Below are positions 17,411 to 43,900 of a stretch of DNA of 64,000 nucleotides, piece after piece (position 1 is the first letter of the stretch; each line of letters starts with the position of its first letter). The DNA lies in the IMG/VR virus record IMGVR_UViG_3300042350_001802, positions 62,001-126,000 of that record. One strand, given 5' to 3'. The notes under the pieces were generated by a model that ran no database searches, was not told the DNA's origin, and saw only the letters and a list, made by a program, of their open reading frames with translations. The position numbers were made by a program, and so were the translations under genes. Source of the stretch: a virus.

Positions 17411-17421
17411 ACTTGAATAAT

Positions 17422-19401: not shown

Positions 19402-19462
19402 ACATTATAAGTTTAGTTTTAAACTTCGAAGATTTATTGTTATATTATAAGTAGAGAATACC
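19402..19462 (+). promoter_or_regulatory. Promoter-like intergenic region before the giant-gene block
   Basis: The gap holds TATAAGTTTAG (19406-19416, also at 3450-3460), an inverted repeat AAGTTT/AAACTT (19409-19414 and 19421-19426), and GTTATATTATA followed by GTAGAG (19439-19456). The latter closely matches GTTATATTATAC-TGTAGAG at 60219-60237 in the divergent region, same strand. The recurrence before plus-strand blocks suggests a phage promoter; the polymerase using it is unknown. Confidence 0.45.
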
Positions 19463-22460: not shown

Positions 22461-25400
22461 ATGCCAGATAAAAGTAATATTGACCCTGGGTTTGGTGTTT
22501 TAGTACCTAACAGACCATATGATGTTCCTGAACAAAGAACACCTGTGGTTGCACCTCCAGGTCCTTTATATGGAGAAGGACCATCTGTTTTACAAACAGA
22601 ACAGGAAGCTCTAGATAAGTTTAGAAGACAAGCTGGTTCTCATTTTGAGTTTCAATCTCTTATACAACCTATTCGTTATGATGATCCAATGTACGATAAA
22701 TTACAACGTACATTTGATAATGCTGATAGAGACTATCTATTTCAGAAGTTGGGGTTTATGCCTAACAGAGATAATGAAGATTTGTTTGCTAATAACTTAA
22801 CTAGATGGCAGAAGTTGGGACTTGCATGGGATCAGATGGGAGAACTTGCAAAAACTACATTTGCAGAGCAATGGGAAACAGAAGCAGAGTTTTGGGGTAA
22901 TCTTGCTACAGCAAGAGTGAAAGACGCTTTCCTACCTTTTGGTGATCAAGAAGAACTACAAAGCATGTATGATAACATGCAGTCTATTAGTAGTAATAAT
23001 TACATCCCATTAACTTCTGAAGAAAGAGCTGGTGACTATGGATTTGGAAAATTTTCTACAGCGCTAGGACAGTTTGGATTTACACTAGGTACAATAGGTG
23101 CTTTTGCTACACAACTTGGACTTGAGTATGCATTTGCTGCTCTCACTGCTCCAGAAACAGGAGGAGCATCTATAGTAGCTGCTGGTGCTAGTACAGCAAA
23201 TAAAGCAAGTCGATTACTTCGTATAGCTGAGATGTTTAAAAATCTTAATCGTTTTGAGAATACTGCTCAGACAACTAATAAGATTAAACAAGCATATGAT
23301 TATTTAACTAACACACAAAATCTAAAAACAGGTTTTGGTAAGTTTTACTCTTTTTCCAAACAATGGAATGCTGCTGCTGGAGAAGCTAAATTTGAAGCTG
23401 CTTTTTCTTATGGGGATCATGTTAACTCAGAAATAGAGAAAGCTAAACAACAGGGGATAACACTTTCATTTGCAGATAGAGAGAGAATTGAAAAGGATGG
23501 GATGGAGATTGCAATGAGAAACGGTATAACAAACACAGGATTATTGTTTGTTATGAACCGTATGAACATGAACAATCTCTTTAGAGGTCCTTTTAATCCT
23601 CAGCGTCGTTATATGACCGAACTAGCATCTAGTATACAAGATGACTTAGTTAAGGTGGGTGGGAAGACTATGTCTCGTTTTGAGGTTCCTTTCTTTACAA
23701 AACAAGGAATGCTTCAAGCAGGTAAGAGTCTTGGTACATGGACTGCTAATAGTGCTTGGGAAGGTGTTCAAGAAGTGGGTCAAGGTATATCTTCTAACTA
23801 CTGGGAAGCATTTTATGATAATAAATATAGTGAAGAAAAGGTAAACAATCTATATCTACTTGGTAAAACCATTGGGGATAGATTAGAAAGTAATGAAGCT
23901 TTTGAGGAGTTTATCAGTGGTTTTATTATTGGTGCTCCAGGTAGTATGGTGAATGCTGGGTTAGGTAGATTAATGACCAGTGGTGCACAACGTGCTCAAT
24001 ATAAACAAGCAGTTAGTGACTATGCAAAGAAAATAAACGAATACGAGAATGATCCTTTAAGAGTGTTTGATCAGCGTAAAGCTAATGCTAATACGCAAAT
24101 GTCTGTTTCTAGTCAAATGGACGAAGCTGTTCGTACCAATAATGTATACGCATACAAGAATCTTTCAAAAGAGCAGATGCGTGATATGATTATGTTAGGT
24201 ATTCGAACTGGAAAACTTGATTACATGATTGGCAATATGAAAGACCAGGTTGCTAATATGTCTGATGAAGATTTTCAAAAACAGTTCGCTATGGTGTCTG
24301 ATGCTACTAATAGAAAGAAAGCAACAGACTACATTAACGCTTTTGAACAAGAATCTATTAACATTCTTAAGGAGTATGATAAGACTAAACAACTTTTCCC
24401 AAATCCATATAGTAACACAAAAAATGTTGCAAAGGGTTCCCCAGAAGAAATTAATCAAAAGATTAAATATCAAGCGTGGGAAGATGCTGTACAAGATTTA
24501 GTATTTGAAAGAAATAACTACAACGATACGTTAAAACGTATGCGTGAGATATTAGGAGACTCTAAGGATTATATTGGTGATGCTCTTTATAACACATACC
24601 AGATGTTGACATCTGATAGAAGTGTAGATAAAGAAATATCAATGCTTCAGTTAGAGATTGCTAATGATCTGAAGATAGAAAACAAAGATAAATCCGTACT
24701 AGACAGAATCAATAAAAAGAAAAAGCAGATTGAAGCTCTTAAAAAATGGAGACAGTCATACACTGCTATAGTTGATTTTAGAGATAACCCTCAACCTATT
24801 GACTTACTTCAAGATAGTACAGCAGATCAGGAATGGAAAAATAAGTCTCGTGATGTATTTGAGGAAGTGTTAAATGCATACCAACTTGATGAAGATCTTA
24901 CACCTCTTACATCAGAAAATGTAGGAAGAGCATATCAGGGTGTATTGGATTTTATTCAACTCCAAAAAGATAACGAGACAGCTGTAAAGAACATATCCTT
25001 TTTATCTTCTCCTGAAGGGTTTGATCAAAACTTTGGACAACGTGCATTACAAGCAGAACTTTTTTATAACAAAGTGCTACAGAATAGAAAAGAAACTATT
25101 CAAAAAAGAGAAGCTGTTTTACAAGCTTTAGAAGAGGATGCTGAGTTTTACAATCGTCCCGATGTACAGGAACTTGTTCAGATATTAAACCAAACTATTG
25201 CTGAAAGTGAGCATGATGCTTCTGCAGTTATTCTTGATATGCTTCAAGAAATATATGAGAAGGGAGAAATTGCAGAACCTGTAAATATTGAAGACACATC
25301 AAAAGACAGTGCAGATAAACCACTTATTGGTGAAACACCGGAAGGAGATTATCTTATAGCATTTGAGGGCGTTAACTATCAAGTGTTTAAAGATGAACCA

Positions 25401-28400
25401 GAACTATTCTATGTAGAAATGCCAGATGGTACTATTGATCCTATTGAAAATATTAATGTGCCACAAGCAGTTAAAGATGCTTTAAAAGATTATATAGCAA
25501 AAAAGACACAACCTCAGCAACCATCTACTGCTGTTGTAGGTGGTCCACCTCCAAAATCATCTCAACCTTCCAATTTAACTTTTACAGATTTTCTTTCCAA
25601 GATTGCGAATGCGGATCAAGCAACTCTATCTGGATTAGCTGAGGACATATCTAAAAATGTTACCACTGCACCATATTCTAATTTTAATAATGCAGAGCTT
25701 GGAATGATCTATGACGCTATGGAAAAAAGACAAGCGGAATTAGATTTACAAGCACAGAAAGCAAAACCAAAAGTTGGAACTAAATCTGAGAATGACACAG
25801 ACTTTATACAAGAATATAATGAAGCTTTAACTAAGGTGAAGCAAATTGTTGATAAAGAAGGTGTTACAGCAAATGAGGTGAAAGCTGCATTTGCTAGCAT
25901 GATGACTGTATTAAATACACTAGCTGATGCTGCAGTACGTAATAAATACATTGCTAATCTGATTACACAACAGAATGCAATTATTGATCGTATAAATAAA
26001 ATTAACTACGCTAAAAACCCAGTTCTCATCAAGTCCACTATAGATGATATCTTTAAGAATAATACATCTTTAGAAACAGCAGTTCAAGAGATATTGGTGC
26101 TGTTTGAAAACTCTACAGATCCTTCTATCAAAGAGGAAATGATATCCTATTTTGAAGAAGCATTTAAAAAGAAGGTAGATGAAATGACTGAATCTTTGAA
26201 AGCACTTGCAAGTCAAGGAGTTACATCAGAGGTTCTTAAAAAGTTTGCAGAAGAGACTACAAAGTTTAGAAACAATGTCATCGCTAGTCTTAACGAACTA
26301 GAAACACTTAGTGGTCAGATTGCGGATGAAACAGCTAATAATAACTACAACCTTGCTGTAAGTGTAGATGAGTCTTTTACAAATCCTACACATAGGTATA
26401 TTATTGATAATATATCACCCACCATCAAAGCAACTTTGTCGCAAACCATTGCGATAAGAAACCTTGTAAATGCTGGTATTCTTACAGAAGATGAAGTTGC
26501 AACTACCGACCAGGATATTTTAGTAGAAGCAAGCGATCTTATCAATCTTGGAGTTGCTCGTATTTTTACAATCGGTATTAACAAAGAGCTTCATCGCTAT
26601 TTTACTCTTGGAAAGAAGGATAGAAAGAAAGACTTAGAAGATATTATAGCAACATACTTAGAGACCAAAGATGACGATTTTAAAGGACCAATAGCTTTAG
26701 AAACAGCTCGTGAGTTTATTAAAACTGCAGAAGACAATGGTCAGTCTGTAGATGTTCTTTTAGAAGCTTTAGAGATTCCCACTACATCAATTATTTCAGA
26801 CGAACATAGAGATCTTCTTGATAAACAACGTCGTGTACTTAATGACTTGCTTAGAAATAACGCAACATTAGATATAATGACAAGTCTTGATGAAAGACAA
26901 AACACCGCTCTTTCTTCTCTAGGAATGGAGACTGTTGAACCTTCCTATTTTATTGATGGAGAATTTATAAACAAGCTATCAAAGCTCTCTAAGAAAGATG
27001 CTGATAAGGTGGCAATGAAGTCTGAATTAACAGCACTTGTAAATGAAGTTAAAGACGAAACTGATATAAAAGTTGCTAATAAGAAGATAAATACGTTTGT
27101 TCAAAAGTATGCATCAAATAATGCAAGAGCAGCTTCTAATCTTAAAAATGTTGTAATCTCCACTGTTAGTTATATATCTCAAACTCAGAATGCAATCGAC
27201 AGTGGTGAAACCTCTAAAGAACCTCTTACAGATAATGATATTAAGGGTGTTCTAAGTGGGAACACTGTCCCTTTGACATTAGCGCAGATCAACCAAGTAC
27301 AGGAATTTGCTCTAAATGTGGTACTTGAGGATGCCAAGAAGACATTCAATGTTACCAGTGGGTATGTGGGATCTATTGATTTTACACCAGAAATGCTTCC
27401 TGATCCAACCGCAGGGTTTAGAACTAAGTTTTCTGTACTTCGTATCAAGGAAGCAGGTGATATAAGAACTTTAGAAGATCTTAATGCTCTTCTTAAAGTG
27501 GAGAATAATACAGTTAACACCCATACTGCTCTTAGAATGATAATGGATAGTGACTTTTCCACTCCTTCTGAGAAGATGATTGCGGGTAGACTTCTTACTA
27601 TTATACCATCAACTGAAACTATTACTATTGACAACGCTCAAGAAGATCTTGGTACATACGATGTTGATACTAATATGGTTACCATCAATCTTGCGTCAGT
27701 AGGATATAAAGAAGATGCTCCAACATATCCAGTAGAAACACTTATTTTACATGAGCTTTTACACCGTGTAATCGAGGTAGAAGCATCTAACCCTAAGAGT
27801 TCTTTTTACAATCAAATTAGATCTGTAATAGAGGTTGTAAAGAACAACCCAGCATCTAAAACTTTTTACGCATTCCAAGGAAATCTCACTGAAGATGAGC
27901 AAGTTAGAGAGTTTGTAATAGAAGCACTCACTAATCCTGCGTTCCAATACCATTTGTCTCAGATTCAATACGCAAAGAGTGGAAAGACAGCATGGGAGAA
28001 GTTTGTAGATGTGTTGGTTAAGATGCTAGCAGCAGTCGGTATTAATGTAGATGGTACAGCACTAGGAGAAGTTCTTAATGTAACTGACGATCTTTTAAGA
28101 TTTCAAGCATCAGAGGAAACACTTAAGAGAATATCCGTAGCTAATAAAGAACAACTTGGTGAATTACAAAAAGAGGTTGAGTCTGATACGACTATGATAC
28201 CATCTGTAAAAGATGCTATGATGTCCTTGATTAACAAGAAGTTACAAGGATATGCATCTGCTGAGATGTACAATAAGACTAAAACCATGAATCCATTTAA
28301 AGGATCTGATGGTATAACTTATTACTATGCAATTGATAATGGGTCTCTACTTGTAGTACGTAAAGGTCGCGATGGTTATAAAGAATCTAAGAAACAGTCT

Positions 28401-30644
28401 ATTAAGGTTGAGATTATAAATCAATTGATTAAAACTAATAAGATTGGTTCTTTTATTCCTAAAAACATTGTAGAAGAAATCTTGAATGTTGCTGGTGATC
28501 CTAAAGTGATGGGCACTTATTCTAGCGGTGCAATGGTGAGTGATGGTGCTACTATTGGTGAAACACGTTTTCCAAATGCTTCTGAAGTAGTTGTAGAAAT
28601 ACCAATCAGAAATCCTCAAGATTATACCAAGTTTAAGAATGACTTCTGGGCAGCTATGAAACTCCGTGGTGCTGCACGTGCAGGTGCATTGGATACAATG
28701 CGATCTAAGTATGGATCTACAGCAGTTGGTGATTATGGTGAATTAGCTAATGCTATTGGCAGTCGTGCAGATATAGAGCGTCTTGTTAGAATGGGATATA
28801 TTTCTATTGGAAAAACTGGAGCTAACACTCTTGGTGATCTCACTTATGATACTAATCTGACACAGGATGAGTTATTTGAAATGTATAAGTTTGTTTTAGG
28901 TGGTGGTAAACTTGATATGTCAGAGTACTCCGATATATCAAACTATATCAATCGTACTTTATCTTCATTGTTTAAAGTTCCAATCTCTGCTGAACTTCAA
29001 ACAAAAATAGAATCAGAACTTTTCAATATTGAACAAGAAGAATACGATGAAGTGCCCCCACCACCTGCTGAAGATGGAGTGGTTATATTCTCCACTACTA
29101 GTAAGGGGATGGAAGAAGATCCTGCAGCATACGCAGCAAATAAAGATGATATTGAACTTACAAACACTGCAGTGGAAACTAATCCGTTAAGATCCTTCTA
29201 TCCTGATGGATATACAGATTATAATACTGGTGAGTTTGTAGAGAATAAGCAATTTAAACTGTATTACAATAAAGTGAGAGCAGTTGTAAATGCTTTATCT
29301 GTAAAGAATCTTGAGGAGTTGAAAGGTGTTATGGTCACCTTTGATATTGACAATGAGTTTCTAAGATGGGATGGATCTGCACAAGATAGTGAATGGAAAG
29401 AAGCACAGAAAGGTGTAGTAGGATACTTATCAGATAATAAAGGAAACCCATATATTTTTAATAAGAAAGGTGATATTGTTGGTACACTAGATCGTAACAA
29501 CCTTGCAGATCAGAAAGGATTAAATAATGGGGAGAACCAGATTGTATACTTCTATACGTTTGCTAATCCTGAAAGACCAGCTGCTAAAGCTGCACAAAAG
29601 AATGATCCTGAAGGTTTTGCAAAACTTATGGAAATGCGCAAGATGGTTATGTCTGGTACTCCTGTAATATCAGCACTAACTAGTGTTTCTCAAGGACAGT
29701 TTAATAAGAAGGTGTTAGTTAATCCTACTAATGCTAATAGACAAGATACGCGTAATGATGAGTTTAGAGATCAATTATTACAACCCCATGTAACATTTGC
29801 ATTCTCTAATAAGTCTGGAACACTTCTTGCAAACGTAAAAGCTCCTAATGGGTCAGTCAATAGTTTTGGATTGTTTGCACCTAATATGCGATATGTTTCT
29901 ATAAAAGTTGGTGATAAACAAATGCCAATTACAGATTATGTTATGGAACTTATGCGTGTATATCAAGAGGTGTTGCTTAGAGATCCTAAAGCAGCAGAGC
30001 AAATCCAAAGCGGTCTTGTAATGTTTAATAACAATATGTGGTTGACAGGACTTGATAAGAACGTTCAGATTCCTAAAAGTCTTCGTAGAGTGGGGGTAAA
30101 AAAATACACTACAACAGCACAGGGTAAAAGACTACCTAGTTTAAACTATTATGATTTGTTTAGCGTGGTGAATGGTGTTGTAGTAATGAATGATAAAAAT
30201 GCTCAGCTTTTAAGAAACTATCTGAATAACCAACCTATGAATATTTGGTCTCAGTGGTTATCTGGAAAGCAAGAGTTTATGATTCCAGTGATTGTTACAC
30301 GTGGTGATGAAAGAAGTATTACATTTGTAAAGAAAGATTATAAAGAGTTCTTATTCAAGGATGTAGGGTTGAAATCTAATGTTGTAGAGATTCCTGCAGA
30401 GGAGTATTTAACAGCATATAATTCAATTGTTCACTTTACAGAAGGACAACCTTTGAATCCTGTAACACAGGTGATAGCACCAACAACACAAGATTTGATT
30501 GATGATCCAAACGCGATAAAGAAGTCTATTGAAAACGTCGGTGATGATGTTAAAACAGATGAAGAAGAAATTAAAGCTCTGAAAAAAGGAAGACGTTTTA
30601 AAGTTCCTGGGTACACTGAAATATTTGAAAAAATCTGTAGGTAA
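22461..30644 (+). CDS. Giant virion protein 1 (2727 aa) with zincin metalloprotease motif
   Basis: The first of three giant crAss-like proteins. N-terminal residues 50-190 are helical; a hydrophobic Gly/Ala-rich stretch (about 195-245) could enter membrane. A segment near 425-505 has W-E-G-V-Q-E-V-G-Q and EEFISGFIIGAPGS, patterns common in phage internal proteins. The middle is long Lys/Glu/Asn helix. At residues 1764-1768 LILHELLHRV gives a zincin HExxH motif, so it may cleave itself, partners or host proteins. The C-terminus is acidic then basic (KALKKGRRFKVPG). Its stop overlaps the RNA polymerase start (TAATG), suggesting stoichiometric synthesis; it is likely packaged with it. Confidence 0.7.
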   Translation: MPDKSNIDPGFGVLVPNRPYDVPEQRTPVVAPPGPLYGEGPSVLQTEQEALDKFRRQAGSHFEFQSLIQPIRYDDPMYDKLQRTFDNADRDYLFQKLGFMPNRDNEDLFANNLTRWQKLGLAWDQMGELAKTTFAEQWETEAEFWGNLATARVKDAFLPFGDQEELQSMYDNMQSISSNNYIPLTSEERAGDYGFGKFSTALGQFGFTLGTIGAFATQLGLEYAFAALTAPETGGASIVAAGASTANKASRLLRIAEMFKNLNRFENTAQTTNKIKQAYDYLTNTQNLKTGFGKFYSFSKQWNAAAGEAKFEAAFSYGDHVNSEIEKAKQQGITLSFADRERIEKDGMEIAMRNGITNTGLLFVMNRMNMNNLFRGPFNPQRRYMTELASSIQDDLVKVGGKTMSRFEVPFFTKQGMLQAGKSLGTWTANSAWEGVQEVGQGISSNYWEAFYDNKYSEEKVNNLYLLGKTIGDRLESNEAFEEFISGFIIGAPGSMVNAGLGRLMTSGAQRAQYKQAVSDYAKKINEYENDPLRVFDQRKANANTQMSVSSQMDEAVRTNNVYAYKNLSKEQMRDMIMLGIRTGKLDYMIGNMKDQVANMSDEDFQKQFAMVSDATNRKKATDYINAFEQESINILKEYDKTKQLFPNPYSNTKNVAKGSPEEINQKIKYQAWEDAVQDLVFERNNYNDTLKRMREILGDSKDYIGDALYNTYQMLTSDRSVDKEISMLQLEIANDLKIENKDKSVLDRINKKKKQIEALKKWRQSYTAIVDFRDNPQPIDLLQDSTADQEWKNKSRDVFEEVLNAYQLDEDLTPLTSENVGRAYQGVLDFIQLQKDNETAVKNISFLSSPEGFDQNFGQRALQAELFYNKVLQNRKETIQKREAVLQALEEDAEFYNRPDVQELVQILNQTIAESEHDASAVILDMLQEIYEKGEIAEPVNIEDTSKDSADKPLIGETPEGDYLIAFEGVNYQVFKDEPELFYVEMPDGTIDPIENINVPQAVKDALKDYIAKKTQPQQPSTAVVGGPPPKSSQPSNLTFTDFLSKIANADQATLSGLAEDISKNVTTAPYSNFNNAELGMIYDAMEKRQAELDLQAQKAKPKVGTKSENDTDFIQEYNEALTKVKQIVDKEGVTANEVKAAFASMMTVLNTLADAAVRNKYIANLITQQNAIIDRINKINYAKNPVLIKSTIDDIFKNNTSLETAVQEILVLFENSTDPSIKEEMISYFEEAFKKKVDEMTESLKALASQGVTSEVLKKFAEETTKFRNNVIASLNELETLSGQIADETANNNYNLAVSVDESFTNPTHRYIIDNISPTIKATLSQTIAIRNLVNAGILTEDEVATTDQDILVEASDLINLGVARIFTIGINKELHRYFTLGKKDRKKDLEDIIATYLETKDDDFKGPIALETAREFIKTAEDNGQSVDVLLEALEIPTTSIISDEHRDLLDKQRRVLNDLLRNNATLDIMTSLDERQNTALSSLGMETVEPSYFIDGEFINKLSKLSKKDADKVAMKSELTALVNEVKDETDIKVANKKINTFVQKYASNNARAASNLKNVVISTVSYISQTQNAIDSGETSKEPLTDNDIKGVLSGNTVPLTLAQINQVQEFALNVVLEDAKKTFNVTSGYVGSIDFTPEMLPDPTAGFRTKFSVLRIKEAGDIRTLEDLNALLKVENNTVNTHTALRMIMDSDFSTPSEKMIAGRLLTIIPSTETITIDNAQEDLGTYDVDTNMVTINLASVGYKEDAPTYPVETLILHELLHRVIEVEASNPKSSFYNQIRSVIEVVKNNPASKTFYAFQGNLTEDEQVREFVIEALTNPAFQYHLSQIQYAKSGKTAWEKFVDVLVKMLAAVGINVDGTALGEVLNVTDDLLRFQASEETLKRISVANKEQLGELQKEVESDTTMIPSVKDAMMSLINKKLQGYASAEMYNKTKTMNPFKGSDGITYYYAIDNGSLLVVRKGRDGYKESKKQSIKVEIINQLIKTNKIGSFIPKNIVEEILNVAGDPKVMGTYSSGAMVSDGATIGETRFPNASEVVVEIPIRNPQDYTKFKNDFWAAMKLRGAARAGALDTMRSKYGSTAVGDYGELANAIGSRADIERLVRMGYISIGKTGANTLGDLTYDTNLTQDELFEMYKFVLGGGKLDMSEYSDISNYINRTLSSLFKVPISAELQTKIESELFNIEQEEYDEVPPPPAEDGVVIFSTTSKGMEEDPAAYAANKDDIELTNTAVETNPLRSFYPDGYTDYNTGEFVENKQFKLYYNKVRAVVNALSVKNLEELKGVMVTFDIDNEFLRWDGSAQDSEWKEAQKGVVGYLSDNKGNPYIFNKKGDIVGTLDRNNLADQKGLNNGENQIVYFYTFANPERPAAKAAQKNDPEGFAKLMEMRKMVMSGTPVISALTSVSQGQFNKKVLVNPTNANRQDTRNDEFRDQLLQPHVTFAFSNKSGTLLANVKAPNGSVNSFGLFAPNMRYVSIKVGDKQMPITDYVMELMRVYQEVLLRDPKAAEQIQSGLVMFNNNMWLTGLDKNVQIPKSLRRVGVKKYTTTAQGKRLPSLNYYDLFSVVNGVVVMNDKNAQLLRNYLNNQPMNIWSQWLSGKQEFMIPVIVTRGDERSITFVKKDYKEFLFKDVGLKSNVVEIPAEEYLTAYNSIVHFTEGQPLNPVTQVIAPTTQDLIDDPNAIKKSIENVGDDVKTDEEEIKALKKGRRFKVPGYTEIFEKICR

Positions 30645-33600
30645 TGGCAAACAACTGTTCAATTAACATTAAAGCTGATAAGCTACCTATTGTACTTAAG
30701 AAGGTAGAATACTATATGTTTAAAGCGTTAGATCGCTCTGGCATATCCTTTTTACAACTTCCTAAAACTAATGTAGATGAAAAACTTCAGCTTTTAGAAA
30801 ATGCACGTTTGTTGCTTGAAGAAGATATTCTACTCTATTCTAAAAAAGCAGTGAAGTTAAAAGATACAGAAGAAGGTGCGTTATATGAGAGTTTTGCACA
30901 AAACCTACAGGGTATAAATGCAAACTGGTCTGAAGCATCTGCATTGTTTCTAAAACACTTTGGTGGTATTATAAATTTAAGGACAAAGTTTAGACTTGAT
31001 GAAGCGGGTCTTATAGATTTAGATGAAACAGTGGATGAAGAAGAAGCTTTAAACACTAAGTTTGTATATGATCAACCAGCAAATGAGATTGATCCTGTAG
31101 ATAATATAGATAAGGGGATTGAATTATTTCTAAGATCTATTACTAAAAAGGATGTTTTTGACGACTATGGGTTTAATGTACTAGTAGACTACGGATCTTT
31201 TGTACGTCGTCTATCAACTGATTTAGAGAACACTGTAAACACTAATGAGATTATTAGTCGTTTAGAAACATTAAAAACAAGTGTTCCAGAATACCAGCAG
31301 ATATTAGATAAGCTTCAGTTTAAACCTACAGATAATGCTGATGACCTTCAGTTTAAAATAAACTTCCGTAATTCTTTTGCTAAAGCATTGATTCCTATAT
31401 ATGTTACATCTTTAGAGAATGGGGTTGTTAAGGTGATAGAAGCTACTACAGCTAAAAAGAATGCATACGAGCAAAGAGTTAACTCTAACTTTTTTAGACG
31501 CGGGATGCCTGTAACTGTAAATGGTAAAAAGGTAAATCTAGCAAGTAAAGAAGGAGGGGTGTGGGTGCTTACTAAGAGTGATCTTTCTAAGCTTCAAAAG
31601 TTTATGGATGAGAAATCTATTCCAGCTGGAGAGATTACAGAAAGAAAGATTCAATTTTTAGAAGCACTCGGATTTGAGTTTTCTCCTGAGTCAAGAGAAC
31701 TTTTAAAAAAGGTTAGCAATCTTAACACAGTTGTTAAATATATATACGATCATACAGTAAGAATATTAGAAAAAGGTGATAGGATTAAAAGTCCTATTGA
31801 TGCCATTTCTAAGACAGTCTTTATTAATAAGAAGAAATATCAGGGACAGAGAGGTAATCTTAATATAATTACCAACTTTGAGATTAAATATAATAAAAGC
31901 TTTAACACTGAAAGAAGTATTGTAAATCAGGATGGTAATAGACAGCATGCTATTCAACACCATAACAATTTTACTATTGTAAATAAGTTCTTATCTGATC
32001 CTCAATCTTATCCTACACTTCAAAGTATAATTCAATCAGAACCATCTATGTTCTGGTTAGATCCTATACGCAATCCCTCGATTGCAAATAGTGTTCTATT
32101 GAATAGTCTATTTTACTATTCTCCTCAAGATCCAAACTTTGGTGCTAGAAGACGTGTTACTAAAAATCAGCAGGGTGTTGTTTTTTCACCAACTGAAGGT
32201 GAATTTGTTACAATCAGTGTTACCAACACTGGTGGTATGCAAATGAAAGATGAGCGAGGTCTTAAGAGTGATTCTGCAGGTAGTACTTCCTTGACAAGTG
32301 TTGATAAACTCATACAGGATATAAATATGTTTATGTTCCGTGGGATTACAAGTGTTCAACGACTTTCAGATAAAGCTACAGATCTTGGAGTTTCATTAAA
32401 CTATTATATTGATCCAGTAACCGGTGCTCCAGTGCAGCGTATATTAGGTGGTGCAACAAATTACGAAAGCATATTTAATACAGATCAGTTTTTAGAGAGT
32501 ACGTTAAATGCTTTGCGAGATGTAATGAAGTCTGCGTATTTAGCAAAAAATGGATTTTACGATGAGTTGGCAGTAGCAAGTAAAACTATAATGTCACCAT
32601 CTAACTTTGGTGTATTTACTAGTATATTGAGTAGTGATGTTAAGTCTATTCTTAACTCAATGATTGATAATGCAGTATCTGTAGAAGATATTGATAATAT
32701 GATGTTAGAAAACACTGATGAAAGAGAAGTGATTCTTTTTGATATTCAGGAGTATATGACAGAGTATAGAGAGCGTTTTAAAGATCTCTTAAACCCTGTT
32801 TTATCTTTAGTTCCAACAACTAATATATTTGGTGCTGATGGTGCGGGTAAAGCTAAAGATGTGGATAATATAATTGACTACTATCTTGCTAATACATTTC
32901 TACAGGATATAGAAAACCTTAAAGTATTTTTTGGTGATTCTTTCTTCTTTAAAGCATTTCATAAGCGTAGCAGTAAAGATTCTGCAACAGGAATTTTTAC
33001 AATCATTGATGATGCTATTATTGAAAGATTTAATAACTACAGTGATGCTCAAGGATATGGTGCAAATACCAACCTTGGTGGAAGAATGCTAGCAGAAAGA
33101 CTTTATAATCAGGGTGTTATAAATAATGATTCTAAAAACTCTGTTATTGAATTACAACAAGTTAGCAAGTCTTTTAGATCTGGTGTAATAAGCGATGTAA
33201 ATTTTAAATCATCGTATATAAAAAACATTAAAGATAACATCGAGAGACTTCGTTCACAAGGACTTATTTCAGATGAGAACTATAAGTTGTATAAAGACAA
33301 TCTACAAAAAGTTATTAGCGAAAGTTATAACGGTGTAGAAGCAGATGGACAGGGTAAATGTACATTTGATTTCTATCGTATTATGAGCATTCTTACTAGC
33401 GATTGGAGTAGGGAGCATGAGGACGCATATAAAAAAATCACCTTATACGCACATTATCAGAGTCTTGTTGAGTCTGAAAAAGATGAAGCTAAGCGTGCTG
33501 AGTATTTAATGAAAAGAGATGCTGTAGGATACGACCCCCTACTTGAGGTGTATTTTCCACCTAAAAAGTTTCAATACTCTGGACCAATGGAATACTCAAA

Positions 33601-36600
33601 AGCTGTCAATGGTCAAGAGTATGGGCAAATGATTCCTGTGTTTGATAAGTTTTCTTTACAACCACTTATACCTACAATCATCAAAGGAACTGCAGATGAG
33701 CACTTAGCTAATAAAATGATGTTTAATGGTGTTGGATATGTAAAGTTTGAAAGTGGAACAAAGGTAGAAAGTCCTAAGAATAAGGATAGTTACTATGCTG
33801 AATACAATGAGTCTAATCCTCAAAGTAGATCTATATATACATTGGAGCAGATGATTGAGATGGGTAGGAACGTTCGTTTTAAATCCGAACAAACTCTCTT
33901 CTTTAATCATCTAAAGCAACAGGTTCGTATTGATTCAAATGTGCATCTAACATCAATCTTTGGTTCACAAATTCGTAAGCTTGTTTTAAGTAACATCTTA
34001 GGAATGGACACTGAGTTTAATAAATCAGAGTTTGTCCGTATTTATAATAAGTATACCGGATTGATTAACAGTTTGATTCGTGCTGAAAAGAGAGACTTGT
34101 ACGGTAAGATGGGAGTTAGAGAAAACGCTGATCGTGAGCTTAGTATATCAAATATCAAAAAACTTGTTCAATTCTTTTTTGAAGAGATAGATAAGAAGAA
34201 CCAAGATAGTAATGTTCGTCGTGCTTTAAATTATAACGAAGAGACAGGACAGTTTGAGATTCCTTTAGATGGATCTGTACAAGCACAAATTATAGAGGGT
34301 ATTATTATTTCTTCTCTGAATAACCGTATTGTAAGACACCGTACTAATGGTTCTATGCTCACCCAAGTGGCAATTACTGGTAGTGAGCGTGTTCAGTTTA
34401 GTAAGGAGAAGTCTAAAGAAGCTCTAAAGACTTTCGGTAACACCGAGCTTAAATACTATGACGTTATAGAAGAAAATGGTAAGCTTACAGTTACACCTAT
34501 GCAGGTGAAGATTGGTTTAACACCACAGTGGAGACCTCTTTTGAATCTTAAGCATATTGATGGTAATCCAATTGGATCAATAGAGCGTTTAAATGAAATG
34601 CTTAAGAATGACACTTGGAAGAAAAGGAATAAAGAATCTATTAGACTTACCGCATATCGTATTCCTACACAAGGTCTTAACTTCTCTGAAGTGATGGAAG
34701 TTGCTGAGTTCTTACCAGCAGCATTTGGAGATGCTATTATTCTACCTTCTGAGATTGTAATTAAAACAGGATCTGACTTTGACATCGATAAGATGTTTGT
34801 ATTCTACCCAAATCTTGTAACAGAGGGAGAAAATTCTGGAACAGTTGTAAAAGATGGAAGTAAACAAAGCATTGAGAATGAACTATTTGCAACAATGCAA
34901 GAGTTGATTCTCCATCCATCTAACTATATGCAGCTTGTTACACCTAGTACAAGCTTCCATATAATGCCAACTGTAAATAAGATATATAAGAAACTTTATG
35001 GTAAGGAGAGAGAGCAGACAGACTACAAAGACACTCAATTAATAGATAGAGATTATAACATTCGCAAGTTCAAATCCCTACTAACTGGTAAGAATGATCT
35101 TGGTATTGCAGCAATTGCTAACACCTTCAATGTGTTATTTCAATTGTCAAATGCAGTATCTAGCAGTCAGTTTTTAGAGACTAATGAAATTAGAACTTTA
35201 CTCAAAAGTCCTTCTGTAATAAAAGATAGGGAGACGGATAAAGTTTTAGAGATTAAGTTTGGGAATATATATGATCAGGATGGGATGTATAAGAGCGAGT
35301 TCTTTGCTGAGTTTATTAGTGCTTTTGTGGACGTTGCTAAAGATGACTACGTGTTTGCAATAAACGTTGTTACAGAACTTAGTCCTTTGATCTTTAGCAT
35401 GAAGTTCCAGGGCTACTCAACAGAAAGTATTTTAGCATTTATAAATCAACCTGCTATAAGAGATTTTACTAAGAACCTTGCTAAGTATAATAGCATGATT
35501 GTTGATACGTATTTAGAATCTGAAAAGAAAAGAATAGCAAAGATTATAGATACATCATCACCTGCTGACATTGAAGAAAACGAACAAATTAAGGTGTTTC
35601 AAGCAAGACTTGAAAAGCTTAAATACTCTGCAAGAAGGAAAGCATTATCAGAAACATTGAAGAATCTAGGGTTTGGAGATATCAAACCGTACAGGAAGTC
35701 AATGTTTAATTTCTTAACTAAGAACAATAAGAAGCTATCATCTTATAGTGGTGCATTTACGCAGGAATCTTTAATGGATAGTATAAAACCTGATGAGTTT
35801 GATGTTTCTATGCTTTCTCAAGATCAGAAGCTATCGCAGCTTGCTATGCTCTTTGAACTTGAAAATCAAAAGATTATATCTGATAGCATGACAGAAACAG
35901 AGTCCTTCTTAAACTTTGATACTAAACCTCACGCTAGTAGCTTTGATGCATATCTTAGAAACAGTAAGTATATGAAAGCGAAAGCTGGTGGTTCTATACT
36001 TTCTATTGATACAATCAATACGATTAAAGACTTAAGTCCAATCGCTCCTTTAAATATAGGAAAAGAAATAGTATCAATTCTTGAGTCTGCGTTCCCTATT
36101 CGAAATAATAGAAAGATAAATGCAGAGGTTTTAGAGGCAGCGTTAGCAGCTCGTCAAGATCCAAACATCATCAATGTTCGCACTGAAGATGATATGAACA
36201 CTCTTGCTCGCACTTTTAAGAATGACTTTATGAGTTATATTCTGTATAACTATCTGGATAAGTCAGAAGCTGGTAGAGAGTTCTTTAAGAAAGAGTTTAA
36301 TACAGATAAGACCTTTGTAGAATATATGAAGGAACTTGTTGAAACTCCTAAGCTGTTGGATCTATTTAATAAAGTGAAAGATGACCTTTCTGTTGAAGAC
36401 TACCAGGAGTTAATTAAGATGTACCCATTCATACAGAACATTGTACCAAAGAGTGGGGAGAAAAATACACAACTTGTTGGTTTTAAACTTGTTGAGAATA
36501 GTTCTCATACAGTGGATAAGGAAAGTGTTATTGCTCAGTTTGAAGATGCAATCAATCTGACTGGGGAAGAAAGCAAAGATGTAAGAATGTTCCTTAGAAA

Positions 36601-37930
36601 TCTTGCACTATATTCTACATTCCAGTCAGGATATAATTACGGAGAGTTTTCGTATATTGCAGTGACACCTATTAATCTGATTAACAAGCTGTATGGTGAA
36701 GCTGTTCAAGAGTTTAATAGAGCATCATCTGAACAGAAAAATGTTTCCTATAGAGATTTTAAGGATATGTTTAGGAAGAATAACCCAGTGTTTTATGCTG
36801 AAAGGTCTAGTATAAACCCTATGACCGGGGAACTTTCTAAACAAGGTAAGTGGTATGTTAGTGGAGTGAACTTAGACTTTACCAAAAATGTTCCGAAAGT
36901 AGGTAATCCGTTGATTGACGCTGGTGTTAAACCAACTGATATGAACGGTAATGCTGCTAAAGATGTGGTGATGGCAAGTGAGTCTACACAATTTATTGGG
37001 TTTAAATCTGGAAGCGCTGCAATATCATCTACTGATAAGTATAGACTTGCTTGGGGTGATAAAGCTAATACAGGCAAGTATACCTCTTCAGATGTTGTAA
37101 TGGTGTCTGCAAGTGGCGTATTTAGAGGAGTAACTAGAGAAGAAGTAATTAAAACTTTTGAGTCTAAATATATACCCATCTTAAATAAAGCTATGGAAGC
37201 AGGTGTTAGTTTTAGAGTGGGTAATCAATACGATAAAGGTAACTTAGGAGATTTCTTAGTTGCTGATCATCTTCGTAAAAATGGATATGTTGAACAGAAG
37301 TTTGAAGGATATTCTAGATGGTTTCCTAAAAAGTCAGATCAAGCAAATGAGTTTTTACTTGCTGATAGTTTAGCACCTATACAACAAAATTTTGCTGATA
37401 GCGCTACTAGAAGAATGCGACCTGAGTTTGCTGGAAAGTCAACTATGGATCTTATTATATCTGGAGATAGAACTAGAAGTACTAGAGCTAAGACAGATAT
37501 ATCTAGAATGTTAAAAGATTACAATCTATCTAAAATATCAGAACTTGTGGGTAAGGTTATCAGAATGACTGATCAACAAGGAAGAGTGGTATACACAAAG
37601 ATTACTAGTGTAAATGAATTTACACAACAATATCAAGATAAGACATGGATGAAAGAGGGTTGGACTAAGGAAGTTACAGATAGTCTTGTAGGTAAATACC
37701 CTTATGCTATAGAGTTTGAGGTGGTTAGGAAACCAGCAAGTTCTGCAGAACCTTTGCAAAAACCTACAGATTTAACTTCTAAGATAGATGCATGGATTTC
37801 TAGTGAGCTTCCCTGGAGTATTGAAACACCTTCTGATAAGATTGCTAAAATGTACGAGAACGAGAAACTTACAGGTGAAACAATTGAAGAATTTTTACAC
37901 AGGATGTCATGTCTTGGTAAACTAAAATAA
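30644..37930 (+). CDS. Giant virion RNA polymerase (crAss-like, DFDID active site)
   Basis: A 2428-aa protein. At 1378-1382 D-F-D-I-D provides the three metal-binding aspartates of the second double-psi beta-barrel; the preceding TAYRIPTQGLNFSE and EFLPAAFGDAIILP segments fit that barrel. This is the signature of the single-chain crAss-like virion polymerase typified by Cellulophaga phage phi14:2 gp66, related to cellular beta' subunits and RNA-silencing polymerases. It is expected to be ejected and to transcribe early genes. About residues 2125-2235 look SLOG/Rossmann-like (VMVSASGVFRG, KAMEAGVSFRVGN), and 2260-2365 look ASCH-like (MDLIISGDRTRSTRAK). These add-ons are my inference; the polymerase call is strong. 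Confidence 0.9.
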   Translation: MANNCSINIKADKLPIVLKKVEYYMFKALDRSGISFLQLPKTNVDEKLQLLENARLLLEEDILLYSKKAVKLKDTEEGALYESFAQNLQGINANWSEASALFLKHFGGIINLRTKFRLDEAGLIDLDETVDEEEALNTKFVYDQPANEIDPVDNIDKGIELFLRSITKKDVFDDYGFNVLVDYGSFVRRLSTDLENTVNTNEIISRLETLKTSVPEYQQILDKLQFKPTDNADDLQFKINFRNSFAKALIPIYVTSLENGVVKVIEATTAKKNAYEQRVNSNFFRRGMPVTVNGKKVNLASKEGGVWVLTKSDLSKLQKFMDEKSIPAGEITERKIQFLEALGFEFSPESRELLKKVSNLNTVVKYIYDHTVRILEKGDRIKSPIDAISKTVFINKKKYQGQRGNLNIITNFEIKYNKSFNTERSIVNQDGNRQHAIQHHNNFTIVNKFLSDPQSYPTLQSIIQSEPSMFWLDPIRNPSIANSVLLNSLFYYSPQDPNFGARRRVTKNQQGVVFSPTEGEFVTISVTNTGGMQMKDERGLKSDSAGSTSLTSVDKLIQDINMFMFRGITSVQRLSDKATDLGVSLNYYIDPVTGAPVQRILGGATNYESIFNTDQFLESTLNALRDVMKSAYLAKNGFYDELAVASKTIMSPSNFGVFTSILSSDVKSILNSMIDNAVSVEDIDNMMLENTDEREVILFDIQEYMTEYRERFKDLLNPVLSLVPTTNIFGADGAGKAKDVDNIIDYYLANTFLQDIENLKVFFGDSFFFKAFHKRSSKDSATGIFTIIDDAIIERFNNYSDAQGYGANTNLGGRMLAERLYNQGVINNDSKNSVIELQQVSKSFRSGVISDVNFKSSYIKNIKDNIERLRSQGLISDENYKLYKDNLQKVISESYNGVEADGQGKCTFDFYRIMSILTSDWSREHEDAYKKITLYAHYQSLVESEKDEAKRAEYLMKRDAVGYDPLLEVYFPPKKFQYSGPMEYSKAVNGQEYGQMIPVFDKFSLQPLIPTIIKGTADEHLANKMMFNGVGYVKFESGTKVESPKNKDSYYAEYNESNPQSRSIYTLEQMIEMGRNVRFKSEQTLFFNHLKQQVRIDSNVHLTSIFGSQIRKLVLSNILGMDTEFNKSEFVRIYNKYTGLINSLIRAEKRDLYGKMGVRENADRELSISNIKKLVQFFFEEIDKKNQDSNVRRALNYNEETGQFEIPLDGSVQAQIIEGIIISSLNNRIVRHRTNGSMLTQVAITGSERVQFSKEKSKEALKTFGNTELKYYDVIEENGKLTVTPMQVKIGLTPQWRPLLNLKHIDGNPIGSIERLNEMLKNDTWKKRNKESIRLTAYRIPTQGLNFSEVMEVAEFLPAAFGDAIILPSEIVIKTGSDFDIDKMFVFYPNLVTEGENSGTVVKDGSKQSIENELFATMQELILHPSNYMQLVTPSTSFHIMPTVNKIYKKLYGKEREQTDYKDTQLIDRDYNIRKFKSLLTGKNDLGIAAIANTFNVLFQLSNAVSSSQFLETNEIRTLLKSPSVIKDRETDKVLEIKFGNIYDQDGMYKSEFFAEFISAFVDVAKDDYVFAINVVTELSPLIFSMKFQGYSTESILAFINQPAIRDFTKNLAKYNSMIVDTYLESEKKRIAKIIDTSSPADIEENEQIKVFQARLEKLKYSARRKALSETLKNLGFGDIKPYRKSMFNFLTKNNKKLSSYSGAFTQESLMDSIKPDEFDVSMLSQDQKLSQLAMLFELENQKIISDSMTETESFLNFDTKPHASSFDAYLRNSKYMKAKAGGSILSIDTINTIKDLSPIAPLNIGKEIVSILESAFPIRNNRKINAEVLEAALAARQDPNIINVRTEDDMNTLARTFKNDFMSYILYNYLDKSEAGREFFKKEFNTDKTFVEYMKELVETPKLLDLFNKVKDDLSVEDYQELIKMYPFIQNIVPKSGEKNTQLVGFKLVENSSHTVDKESVIAQFEDAINLTGEESKDVRMFLRNLALYSTFQSGYNYGEFSYIAVTPINLINKLYGEAVQEFNRASSEQKNVSYRDFKDMFRKNNPVFYAERSSINPMTGELSKQGKWYVSGVNLDFTKNVPKVGNPLIDAGVKPTDMNGNAAKDVVMASESTQFIGFKSGSAAISSTDKYRLAWGDKANTGKYTSSDVVMVSASGVFRGVTREEVIKTFESKYIPILNKAMEAGVSFRVGNQYDKGNLGDFLVADHLRKNGYVEQKFEGYSRWFPKKSDQANEFLLADSLAPIQQNFADSATRRMRPEFAGKSTMDLIISGDRTRSTRAKTDISRMLKDYNLSKISELVGKVIRMTDQQGRVVYTKITSVNEFTQQYQDKTWMKEGWTKEVTDSLVGKYPYAIEFEVVRKPASSAEPLQKPTDLTSKIDAWISSELPWSIETPSDKIAKMYENEKLTGETIEEFLHRMSCLGKLK

Positions 37931-37939
37931 TAAATCAAT

Positions 37940-40900
37940 ATGAGTGCTTGTCCTAATCTAAAGTCTCAAGAGTGGAAAACATTGTCTAGTGCAATCGGTG
38001 AAGATCGTGCTATGCTGGCATTTATTCGTAATAATGAAGCTATCCCTTCTGTAGAAAAAGCTCGTGAGCTTATAACAGATAGAGGATTGCTAGAGTCTTT
38101 TGAAAAGATGCCACTACTCACTACAGAATTAGTGAATGGTATTTTAAAATCTAGGGGTTTAATTACAGATGAGACTACCAGAATTGATGGAAACACTTAT
38201 TATAGAATAGATAAGAGTGGTCCAAATATTGGTCAGCGTCTTGGAGATTTTACCGATCAGTACGGAATGATATTAGATTATCGTGGGGATTATGTACGTC
38301 CTACAGAATCTGGCATGGAACAGTTTAACTCTTTTGCTGGCACTGTAAACTTTGACAATAGAACTCTTACAGAGATATCTAAGTCTTTTCTTTCTTCTAT
38401 TGGTGTTGGTATTCAAACTCAGAATGATGTATTAGCAAAATATGGATCTAATGGTGTTGCTGACTTTGCAGCTAGAATGGTTCGTATTCAGGAAGGATTT
38501 GAAGATGAAGCTTTACCAGAAGAAGCATTGCACTTCTTTTTGGATATGATTGATCAATCCACTCCTGAACTTATGGAAGCGTTAGATAAGATACGCGAGC
38601 TTCCTATCTATAAGTCTACATTAGAGCAGTACAAAAACAATAAGAACTATCAGACTCCTGATGGTAAGATTCGTTTTGAAAAGATTAAAAAAGAAGCATT
38701 AGCTAAACACCTTGCACAAAAACTTAAGGAAAAGGAAATGCGTGGGTGGTTAAAAAATCTATGGGACTATATTGTATCTGCAATTAAGAATCTTACATTC
38801 AATAAAGATCCTATGGAAAAGCTTCAGTTGCTTTTCTTAAAAGGTAGGATTGATGCTCTCCAATCTAATTTTAATTCTTCAGAAATCTACAATCAGCTTT
38901 CTGATGAGTATAAAAACTTCTATGAGTCTCAAGTTTCTACGGAAGAGCAGAGACAAACAGTAGCTGCAGTGTTTCAAGCTACTGCTCCTATTATGTTTGA
39001 ACCTGAAAATCACAAACTTACGATGCGTGATGCAACAGGTACAGATCATATAATGAAGTCTACAACATCTATTTTAGGGTCTGACTATATAACTGAACTT
39101 GATTCTCTGGATGTTATTCTTGCTATCACTACAAACTACTCATTAGAGATGGGTGCGCAAGCTGGTATTACACTTGGGGACGATGCTCAAGTGACTGGTA
39201 AAAAGCTCACTGACTATCTTGTAAATCTAATTGTACAGAATAAAGTAGAAGAGGAAGAGATACAGCAGCGTTTGGGTGATCGTATTAAAGAACTATTGTT
39301 TCAAGCAGCAGAGAGTAAGAGAAAAACCTTATTTGGTACTGCAGTGCATAGTATTGCAGAAGCTGCTATTCTTAATAAACCTATAGACTTAGATGCTTTA
39401 GATCCAATTATCTACAATATTATGGATCGTAAAACGATTGAGCGTTTAGTATATGGTACTGCATCTGAACCTGGAATTATAGGGATAATCAGAGATCTTA
39501 AAAATAGTGGTCATGTTATTATGACTGAGGTTGCTGTAGGTAATGGAGAGATTGGTGGTATCATAGATATAATTGCAATCGATAAGAAAGGAGTGGCACA
39601 CATCTACGACTTTAAAACAAAGTTTATAAATCCTGAGAAAACAGCTAAGAAGTTTAATACACTAGAAGACTACTTCAACTATGTAACTTCTCTTCTTAGT
39701 AAAGGGGGTATTAAAGATGAGGAGCAAACTCTACCAGAATTAGTTGGTAAGCGCAGATCCCAGATGGAAAAATATGGTCAGCAGCAATCTATTTATAAGA
39801 AGCTACTAATGCAGTCTGGGGTTAAGGTTGGAGACATTAATATTATTGGTGTACCATATACGCTAAACACTAATACTAACAAGGTGGATGATATTAAACC
39901 ATTTGTTGTAAAAAACATAGGGTTTAATGATCGTATTGCAAACTCTTATTTCCCAAATCTTGATCCTACAATGGATGCTAATGCTACAAAAGAGGTTAAG
40001 AAGATTGAGGATGATAGAGTGAAAGCATTAGAAAGTATATCAAAAGAAAAGCTTAAGGAGACGTTTGCTAATATGCAAGCTCGTTTAACTCAAATCTATA
40101 ACTACTTTTCAAGAAATAGAGAAGGACGTGTTGTATATGAAATGTTAAACGATGAAGCTACAAAAAGTAATAGGGTTAAATTACAAAGAGATCTTGTTAC
40201 TGATGTAATTGAGAATTTTGATAGTTTTAACGATATGCTTTCTGCACAAAAAACTTTTGTGGAGATTATAGATTCTGCTGGTCCGATACTGAATATCTTA
40301 AGTAAGAGATTCCAAGAGCTTAGAGCTTTAACACCTGCAGATACAAAAGCAGCAAGTGCTAAGCTTTCTGAAATGAAAAAGATTAGAGACTTTATTGTAG
40401 GTTATCAGAATATGTTTGATGAGATGTCTCAATATCTTGACAAGACTGAAAATAACCCATTAGTTAGTCGTATTAATGAAATGCAAGGGATTATAGCAGG
40501 TATAAGAGTTGACTATATTCATGGCATTACTCCTGAGACTATTAAGATTTTAAAGGATGTATTTAGTCCTCAAGAGGTTGAGAATATGAAGCGTGAGTAT
40601 AATGAGATGATTAAATCTGCAGAGGAACGCGGTGATAAACAAAGAGCGGAACAACTTAGAAAAGAGCTTGATGAGTTGCCATCTGAGCGTATGATTGCAG
40701 AACTTTTGAGTGGTAATAAGGGTGATGTAGGTTGGTTTTTCTCAAAGTTTCTACCAGCAATATCAAATCCTGATATTATTATAGCAGGTCTTGCTAAACG
40801 TCTTAAAGCAGTTTTAGATAAGGTGCGTCTTATAAATAAAGACTTTAGAGATCGTTTAGATGTAGAATTTACAAAACGTGCTGCTGTATATGGTAGAGGT

Positions 40901-43900
40901 CTTGATGTTAAAGCAATCAATCAGTCTCTTGTTTATACGCAAAAAACAATATCTAGAAGCGGTGAGGAGATGAACCAGTTGTTTTTCTTATCTGAATTTG
41001 ATGAGAAACTTTATTATGATTATGATAAGCTACGCTATGAGCTTGAGCAAGTAAGAGAAAAGTTTAGCAATGGAGAAGCTACTGAAGCTGAGTTGAGAGA
41101 AGCAAAAAAGAATCTCAAGGAGTTTGAATTAAAATACCTTGAGTCTCAATATACAGATGAGTATTATCAGATGAGCTCTATCCTTGATACCACTGTAACT
41201 TATAAAGGTAGAAAACAGACTGTCAGAGAAATAAGAGATGGTATTATAGATGGTATGCGTGCTATTCAAAGAAAATATCACCGAGATGACATAGCAGAAG
41301 GTGCTGTAAGTGAAGCAGATTTACAAGAACTTCAAATGTATAGAGAGCAATTGACAGAGTTACAGGAGAAAACAAATCCTGATGGTAGTAAAAAGACTGG
41401 AGATGCTCTTCGTATAGCAGATATTCTTCAACGTTATAGTGCTAATAGCAAAAAGATGTATGAGAATGTCGAGATGGGTGGGTTATTTGAAAGAAAAAGA
41501 GAGCGTGTAAAACTCGCTTATGGTGAAAATAGTGAGGAGTATAAACGCTGGATGGCAAATAATACACGTCTTGTAATATCAGATCGTTATTATGAAGAGA
41601 TGGAGTCTATTATGACCGAGCTTGCAGATCTCACACAAGATCCTTATGGAGATAGAAAGAAAGAATTATACGCTGAGTTGCGCACATTAGTGTCTCCATT
41701 TAAAGATAAAGACGGATATATTAAAGGTGAACTAATTGATAATCAAAGAATTGAGAGAATAAAGAACGTACAAAGAGAAATTGATCTGTTGAATAGTCTT
41801 ACAAACGACTATACATCTTTAGGATATACAAAGGAGGAAGCAGCAGAATTAAAGCGTCAAAGATTCTTGAGTTCTATCACTGATCCAAATCATCCTAACT
41901 ATGGAGACTTTAATCCTTTTGCTGTAGATGATATAAAGAAAGCAAGGGAAGCTCGTCTTAAAGCAGATAAGAATCTTGAAGAAAGAATCAAGCGTATTGA
42001 TGTTCTTAGAAAGCAATTGTTTGCAATGCGCAAAACTGAGAACACAAAGTATTACTATCAGGAATTAGAAAATCAAGAACGTTTATATGCAGACGCTGCA
42101 GGGATTTCTTATGAAGAGCTTAAGAAAGATAATAGATTATATTCTCAGTTCCGTGAATCTGAATGGTTCCAGACAAATCACACGCATAAAGTTAGAAATG
42201 TATTTGATGAGAATCTTGGAGATAATCTTCAATCTGAGTCTTGGGAACCTATATACATCTGGAGGCGTAATACCCCAGTAGAAGAGTATATAGAAGAAAA
42301 ACCAGCTAGTCATTTTTATAAGTATGTACTTCGTGAATCATTTGTTGATGATAATGGTAAGACTGTACAGCTTATAAATAAAGATAATAAGGATATACAG
42401 GGAAGACCTAAACCTAAAGCTAATACTGTTTACAAAGCAAAATATGGTGCAGATCATCCATACTTAAATGAAAGATATAAAGATCTCAAAACAAAATATG
42501 AGAACAACACTGCTTCTGAAAAAGAACGTGTTGACTATGAGAACCTTATCTACATTCATAAAGAACTGATTGATGCTCAGCAGGATATAGAATATCGATA
42601 TCGTTTAGGTTTTGGTGTTCCATTTATGGAAAAAAACCTACTTCAAAGAACTGTTGAAGCTAAAGGTCAAAATCTTAAAGAAGCTGCACGTAATACAGTT
42701 AATACCATTAAGCGTGGATTTGTACGTACAGAAGCAGACTTGAATGAAGGTGTCCCAGATTCTACCTCCTCTGCAGCTCGTATTGCTACGATGGATAACG
42801 AAGAGGTTAAATTTATACCAGTTCGTTTTGCAAGTAGAAGTGACGCAGATAATGCTTCATACGATGTATGGGGTGCTATGCTTAACTATGTATCCTCAAT
42901 CAATCGCAAGAAAGAACTTGAAAAGGAACTTGCGTTTGTAAATGCTGTAGAAGAAGTTATTGGAGACAAGATGAATCAACCTAAGAGTGAGACAAAGAAT
43001 CTTATACTTAGTAACATCTTTAAAAAGGTATTTAAAGATGAGGACATTGCTAAAAGAATCAACTTAGGAAGTAATAATCGTGCTGAGGTTATAAAGAGTT
43101 TTGTAAATAGTGTGCTATATAATGAGGAGTACTTTGAAGGATATGATGTACTAGGTGTAAATACGCAGAAGACTATTAGTAGACTTATGAGTTTAAGTAG
43201 CTTTACACTACTTGGATTTGCTCCTTTTAACTGGACGGTGAATGCTCTTTCTGGTAATGTACAAGCTACGATTGAAGCTGTTGCAGGAAAGATGTATGGG
43301 TATAGAGATTTTCTTTCTGCTAAAAAGATCATTTATGCTGATAGTGTTGTAGGAGGTGAGTATGGATCTATTATGAAAGATATGATGGCAGACTTTGGAA
43401 AGGTTGGTAATAGATCTTTCTGGGGTCAAATGATGGAGGTATATGATCCTATTCAGGGAGAGTTTGAAAATGAGTACGGAAGAAAAACAAACTATAATAG
43501 CGTTAAGAACATTTTAAGTTTGGGTGCTTTTTCTGGTAAGATCTGGGGTGAGTGGGAGATTCAGACATCTTCATGGGTAGCGTTTATGAAAAACGTGCGT
43601 CTTTATAATGGTAAGTTCGTAGATAGAGAAACATTCCTAACAATGAAGTTAGGATCTGAGTTTTCTGGAATGACCATGAAAGACTATACAACACAGCGTT
43701 TAGAAGCTTTGAAGGAGTGGGATGGGTTAAAGGTTAATCTGTTAGACGCACATGAGTTAGATGTAAATGGTAAACTTAGAATTAAAGCTGAGTACCAAGA
43801 TGCTTTTAAAATTGGTAGTCAAGAGTTTTCCGATATCGTTGCTAAGCTGCATTTTATGCAGAAAAAGATAAACGGATCGTATGCTGAGTTTGATAAAGCG

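Follow-up and report, generated by a model that had tools for sequence, protein, structure and literature searches.

The polymerase locus and its terminal cysteines

The 64,000-nucleotide stretch analyzed here (hereafter the window; positions 62,001 to 126,000 of the 127-kb IMG/VR virus record IMGVR_UViG_3300042350_001802) carries three consecutive giant genes, A, B and C, of which the middle one is predicted to encode a crAss-like virion RNA polymerase. Protein B is specified by an open reading frame (ORF) of 2,428 amino acids (30644-37930, + strand), flanked on the same strand by the giant ORFs A (22461-30644) and C (37940-44608). A single cysteine stands on each side of both junctions at which these proteins would meet. 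The genes, the catalytic motif and the junction codons are as follows.

22461..30644, + strand: protein A, upstream giant cargo protein, 2,727 amino acids, with a single cysteine at residue 2726 (penultimate)
30636..30638, + strand: Cys2726 codon of A (TGT), A side of the A/B junction
30644..37930, + strand: protein B, predicted crAss-like virion RNA polymerase, 2,428 amino acids (from ORF, tblastn and motif)
30656..30658, + strand: Cys5 codon of B (TGT), B side of the A/B junction
34775..34789, + strand: DFDID catalytic motif of polymerase B
37910..37912, + strand: Cys2423 codon of B (TGT), B side of the B/C junction
37940..44608, + strand: protein C, downstream giant cargo protein, 2,222 amino acids, with a single cysteine at residue 4
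37949..37951, + strand: Cys4 codon of C (TGT), C side of the B/C junction

Protein B combines a DxDxD motif, a giant single-chain ORF and the A-B-C gene order of crAss-like polymerases, and its residues 844-1620 match gp66 of Cellulophaga phage phi14:2 (tblastn: 24.5% identity, E 4e-12), a kinship that places it with the crAss-like virion RNA polymerases. An earlier note on this DNA had taken DFDID at residues 1378-1382 (34775-34789) as the mark of a crAss-like single-chain polymerase, and both the position of the motif and the gp66 match bear this out. Whole-protein Pfam and PHROGs scans of B returned nothing useful, and a phmmer search of B against the PDB gave no match, gp66 included. Together, these comparisons support the identification of B as a crAss-like virion RNA polymerase, for which packaging in the virion and transcription of early genes are predicted.

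Protein B contains three cysteines, at residues 5, 906 and 2423. Taken together, A, B and C hold five cysteines in 7,377 residues, where approximately 75 would be expected from the rate in the window's other genes, and four of the five fall within the 48 residues that make up the junction ends (chance 9e-9). It was the retained C-terminal end of B, described below, that led to this observation, which the earlier note had not made. Phage phi14:2 has in common with the window the gene block (gp65/gp66/gp67), the DxDxD polymerase and the terminal-cysteine pattern: gp67 has one cysteine (the last residue), gp66 has two (residues 3 and 2179 of 2180) and gp65 has one (residue 3), all four being located at ends that would meet. 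In crAss001 the same three virion proteins bear cysteines at the ends that should meet, with one in gp47 (third from the end), three in gp50 (residues 5, 1334 and ninth from the end) and one in gp49 (residue 5), that is, four of the five cargo cysteines at such ends. These terminal cysteines are kept in crAss001 even though its genes A and B are on opposite strands, whereas A and B share a strand in the window. No mention of the terminal cysteines of crAss001 cargo was found in the structural paper (PMC10172136), and a literature search that did not cover the phi14:2 polymerase paper (10.1038/s41586-020-2921-5) returned no report of terminal cysteines in such cargo.

Cysteine pairing across the Crassvirales

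In 17 reference genomes of the Steigviridae, Intestiviridae and Suoliviridae, in three of which the chain is seen only in part at the locus or the polymerase gene is interrupted, meeting ends carry cysteine and the outer ends of the chain do not. For an unselected comparison, all adjacent same-strand ORF pairs with each member at least 300 amino acids long were analyzed (n = 152). Cysteine was present on both sides of the junction in 91 pairs, on neither side in 53 and on one side in eight (Fisher P = 3e-31, a significance inflated by the shared ancestry of the pairs). The 94 cysteine-bearing junctions have exactly one cysteine at each end, nearly always at position 3-5 from the Met and mostly within four residues of the C-terminus. 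Sequence conservation around these cysteines is otherwise low, histidine accounts for 9 of 1,316 residues on either side, and the cysteine codons divide between TGT and TGC as 77:14 and 76:15. Internal cysteines are lacking in 27 of 37 complete polymerase ORFs. One apparent exception to the pairing (L052) is followed by a gene that encodes no cargo protein and another (L101) looks like a frameshifted ORF; in L127 and L074 the cysteine lies 10-11 residues from the end, beyond the counting window.

Fused and split genes provide a natural experiment on the same rule. In the Suoliviridae A and B form one ORF and cysteines are left at the B/C junction only, while in Carjivirus B and C form one ORF and cysteines are left at the A/B junction only. 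Seven viral contigs carry A, B and C as apparently one ORF of up to 5,023 amino acids (in four of them truncated by the end of the locus), and this ORF has no cysteine. Where a protein is further split (L022, L090), one additional cysteine pair appears. On well-supported branches, the polymerase tree shows five or more switches between the split and the fused state of A and B; these switches are independent, though pairs sharing ancestry are not. Single cysteines thus occur on both sides of a junction, are absent from the outer ends and are lost on fusion.

A C-terminal slot occupied by mobile modules

Similarity between B and its nearest polymerases (L002, L003 and L005) ends at approximately residues 2075-2081 and returns only in the last ~20 residues. 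Since the similarity to these relatives stops at ~2080, the extra C-terminal tail that the earlier note had described beyond the polymerase core is a real addition to the polymerase. The features of this region are as follows.

36929..37324, + strand: mobile alpha/beta module, residues 2096-2227, fold class unconfirmed, no cysteine
37382..37729, + strand: mobile module with predicted ASCH fold, residues 2247-2362, no cysteine (from profiles, model and Foldseek)
37844..37915, + strand: C-terminal linking peptide of B, residues 2401-2424, ...GETIEEFLHRMSCL, kept in L002-L005

Module relatives were gathered from IMG/VR, their limits set with profiles and the sequences then aligned. The resulting limits are near the domain ranges first proposed (~2125-2235 and ~2260-2365), and the motifs quoted there are located as described (VMVSASG at 2152, KAMEAGVSF at 2182, MDLIISGDR at 2268 and GWTKE at 2339). 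Phi14:2 gp66 (2,180 amino acids), whose relatives the earlier note had proposed to examine for the extension, itself lacks both modules. The two modules are not chance sequence, because other crAss-like phages encode relatives of each that are 60-77% identical.

The contents of the slot vary among the nearest polymerases, with cores 44-61% identical to that of B. The L002 polymerase has no module and retains core and linker; another tail, ~720 residues long, is common to L003 and L004; and the ASCH domain of L005 is only 31% identical to that of the window. The window ASCH module, on the other hand, matches ASCH domains at 63-77% identity in phages with polymerase cores just 26-33% identical to that of B. 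Module identity thus far exceeds core identity, while the nearest cores differ in their tails, and hence the modules move: both extra domains are mobile modules swapped into a slot between the core and the C-terminal linking peptide. Relatives of the window ASCH module are found before the polymerase in some phages and after it in others, and also in neighbouring giant ORFs that end and start with the same cysteines. The last ~20 residues, GxxIEEFLxxLxC, are kept in L002-L005 and in the window despite the differing tails, and the alignments of both modules together contain one cysteine in 5,596 residues. The slot shows how such phages can attach cargo domains to an injected enzyme.

The tails of L003 (residues 2331-3082) and L004 include a DprA-like stretch, G-D-M-x-G-V-D, and an FGNPW stretch that resembles another nucleotide-related domain; pieces of this ~720-residue tail reappear in L022, L040 and L044.

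Fold of the two modules

The AlphaFold2 model of the ASCH module has a mean predicted local distance difference test (pLDDT) score of 91.6, and a Foldseek search of the PDB with it returned EF3133/DUF984 as the top match (E 2e-4, probability 1.00), followed by ZmASCH (probability ~0.97-1.00), with template-modelling (TM) scores of about 0.5. The prediction supports an ASCH fold, the ASCH/PUA-like beta-barrel, for residues 2247-2362, and agrees with the earlier note, which had called ~2260-2365 ASCH-like. The signature G-x-[KR]-T-x-[TS]-x-R is present as GDRTRSTR, with G35, R37, T38 and R42 invariant in 28 sequences. The Pfam PF04266 cut-off was not reached: two of the 28 members match, the best with E 0.029, and the window domain has no match. 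The assignment stands despite the Pfam score because the superfamily is defined by fold. EF3133 and ZmASCH have this fold in common with the module, but are free-standing cellular proteins, whereas the window domain is a mobile module within virion cargo. In the ASCH amidohydrolase YqfB, lysine K21 is essential (PMC6972931); with the motif aligned by eye, the place of this catalytic lysine is taken in the module by an invariant arginine. This difference speaks against a YqfB-type amidohydrolase, and binding is therefore favoured over YqfB chemistry.

The alpha/beta module likewise gave a confident AlphaFold2 model (pLDDT 91.4). Foldseek searches of the PDB and of viral models with it yielded nothing at E <= 0.001, only weak and unrelated matches with TM ~0.3, and a Pfam search gave no family match. 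The earlier note had proposed a SLOG/Rossmann domain at ~2125-2235; a confidently modelled alpha/beta fold is indeed predicted there, but the SLOG label was not accepted, because the Foldseek matches were weak and unrelated in both libraries, and a SLOG identity is to be regarded as a possibility. A glycine-rich G-x-x-x-G-x-D-like motif (GVASGMD-like) is limited to the distant relatives L011, L089 and L106. DprA/SLOG-type extra domains have been annotated previously in cr130_1 gp79 and similar crAss-like polymerase ORFs, but homology between these and the window module is not demonstrated, an hhalign comparison with the DprA-like tail of L003/L004 being weak (31% probability). As the profile built iteratively for the SLOG candidate extended into the neighbouring ASCH module in its last rounds, a hand-checked member set was used for the alpha/beta alignment; it holds one doubtful member, L110, the first columns of which overlap its ASCH neighbour. 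A free-standing relative of the alpha/beta module, 136 amino acids long, is found in Vibrio phage Kuja (L069, 2959-3369), just before ribonucleotide reductase genes, and contains a cysteine, unlike the cargo versions.

A candidate disulfide linkage of the cargo proteins

How podovirus-like particles pass several 150-300 kDa proteins down a narrow tail in the correct sequence is still unexplained for the phages that are most abundant in the human gut. The crAss001 virion packages gp47, gp49 and gp50 as cargo, which has to unfold in part to get through a tail less than 50 Å wide, and disulfides occur in these virions (PMC10172136). Given the distribution of cysteines at the meeting ends, B is probably the middle link of a three-part train of virion proteins with one disulfide at each junction. 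The C-terminal cysteine of A would bond the N-terminal cysteine of B, and the C-terminal cysteine of B that of C at its N-terminus, each disulfide taking the place of the peptide bond by which these parts are connected in related phages with fused genes. From these patterns we infer the disulfide chemistry itself, serial ejection and release by reduction. A chain nearly free of cysteine could unfold and thread through the narrow tail without forming wrong disulfides; the covalent connection would set order and stoichiometry, the pull on one protein drawing in the next; and once inside the host, the junctions would be cleaved by the reducing cytoplasm and the polymerase set free, with the slot modules having travelled in along with it. 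On balance, though with somewhat less assurance than for B in its own locus, we lean towards Crassvirales in general shipping their transcription machinery as a covalent train of this kind, composed of near-cysteine-free giants joined in fixed order by disulfides, uncoupled in the cytoplasm and bearing payload modules.

The ejected virion RNA polymerase of phage N4 (gp50; 3,500 amino acids) has no cysteine and resembles the window cargo in being a giant ejected polymerase with this tendency, but it is a single chain of a different polymerase type and has no terminal cysteines. Since the N4 virion proteins gp51 and gp52 are also without cysteine, N4 hints that ejected phage proteins generally avoid it. 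What would be new here is the proposed linkage of the cargo proteins; the polymerase and the ASCH fold are of known kinds. A redox-released covalent train, if true, would be a new mode of protein ejection and would explain cysteine avoidance in the giants. The idea is directly testable, perhaps in the existing crAss001 virion mass spectra, which are published with and without reduction (PMC10172136). The cysteine-bearing tryptic end peptides to be sought there are CAIIPQVR of gp49, CITTNSTIEELAAK of gp50, ICGANTLYEL at the gp50 C-terminus and CNS of gp47.

Several points weigh against a disulfide train. Virion assembly in a reducing cytoplasm and the many anaerobic hosts complicate the timing of the bond, and the phages share ancestry, making the pairs non-independent. 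L030 is a true, discordant exception to the pair rule, and Carjivirus gp47 (L113 30141-32714, 857 amino acids) has a single, penultimate cysteine with no visible partner. Avoidance of internal cysteine is not absolute either, several being present in some gut lineages (cr130_1 and cr272_1; L059 and L062 with 8-11).

Alternative explanations of the cysteines differ in how they account for the pairing. Docking of each protein to like copies of itself, or to portal or capsid during packaging, could account for the partnerless C-terminal cysteine of Carjivirus gp47, which is another cargo protein, but attachment to a third partner does not predict that cysteine occurs on both sides of a junction or on neither, that fused junctions lose both and that outer ends have none; we regard it as unlikely. 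A shared metal, or some bond other than a simple disulfide, connecting A with B and B with C would follow the identical both-or-neither logic. However, one cysteine per end and almost no histidine leave too few ligands for zinc, the sequence around the cysteines is little conserved, and the presence of disulfides in crassvirus particles is established (PMC10172136). The zinc site was rejected on the scarcity of ligands, and the broader metal-or-other-bond reading is judged slightly less probable still than docking. At many junctions the genes overlap or lie close together, and a nucleotide-level signal at the stop/start overlap, such as translational coupling or an intron remnant, might read as cysteine by chance. 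The signal does not stem from gene overlap, however, because crAss001 keeps its cysteines with A on the opposite strand; both TGT and TGC are used, the position of the cysteine varies, and the internal depletion would go unexplained. This reading was rejected as highly improbable. A disulfide between the paired cysteines hence remains the preferred explanation.

As for the modules, we infer any role from their fold and distribution: they probably bind RNA or nucleotides, and possibly act in counter-defence. The earlier note's suggestion, that they are nucleotide-sensing or anti-defence effectors injected in fusion with the polymerase, is tentatively entertained. Modules that distant phages exchange at 60-77% identity, and that occupy many slots in injected proteins, are reminiscent of arms-race payloads, and binding of RNA or modified bases is known for ASCH relatives (PMC5615036, PMC7641849); yet mobility fits a payload role without showing one, the SLOG identity is unconfirmed and an arginine replaces the YqfB lysine. 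A role restricted to early transcription through RNA binding, or near-neutral passage in a tolerant linker, is given slightly less weight. It would agree with L002, which keeps core and linker without a module, but the modules are highly conserved against divergent cores, which argues for a selected function.

Neighbouring features

Protein A contains a HELLH zincin-type metalloprotease motif (27750-27764), and the annotation of its Carjivirus homologue, gp45, describes a fusion with a zincin protease. Residues 455-639 of protein C are exonuclease-like (phrog_298, E 1e-5). Immediately upstream of A in the window (16052-22441) lie three virion-type ORFs of 452, ~660 and 992 amino acids with zero cysteines.
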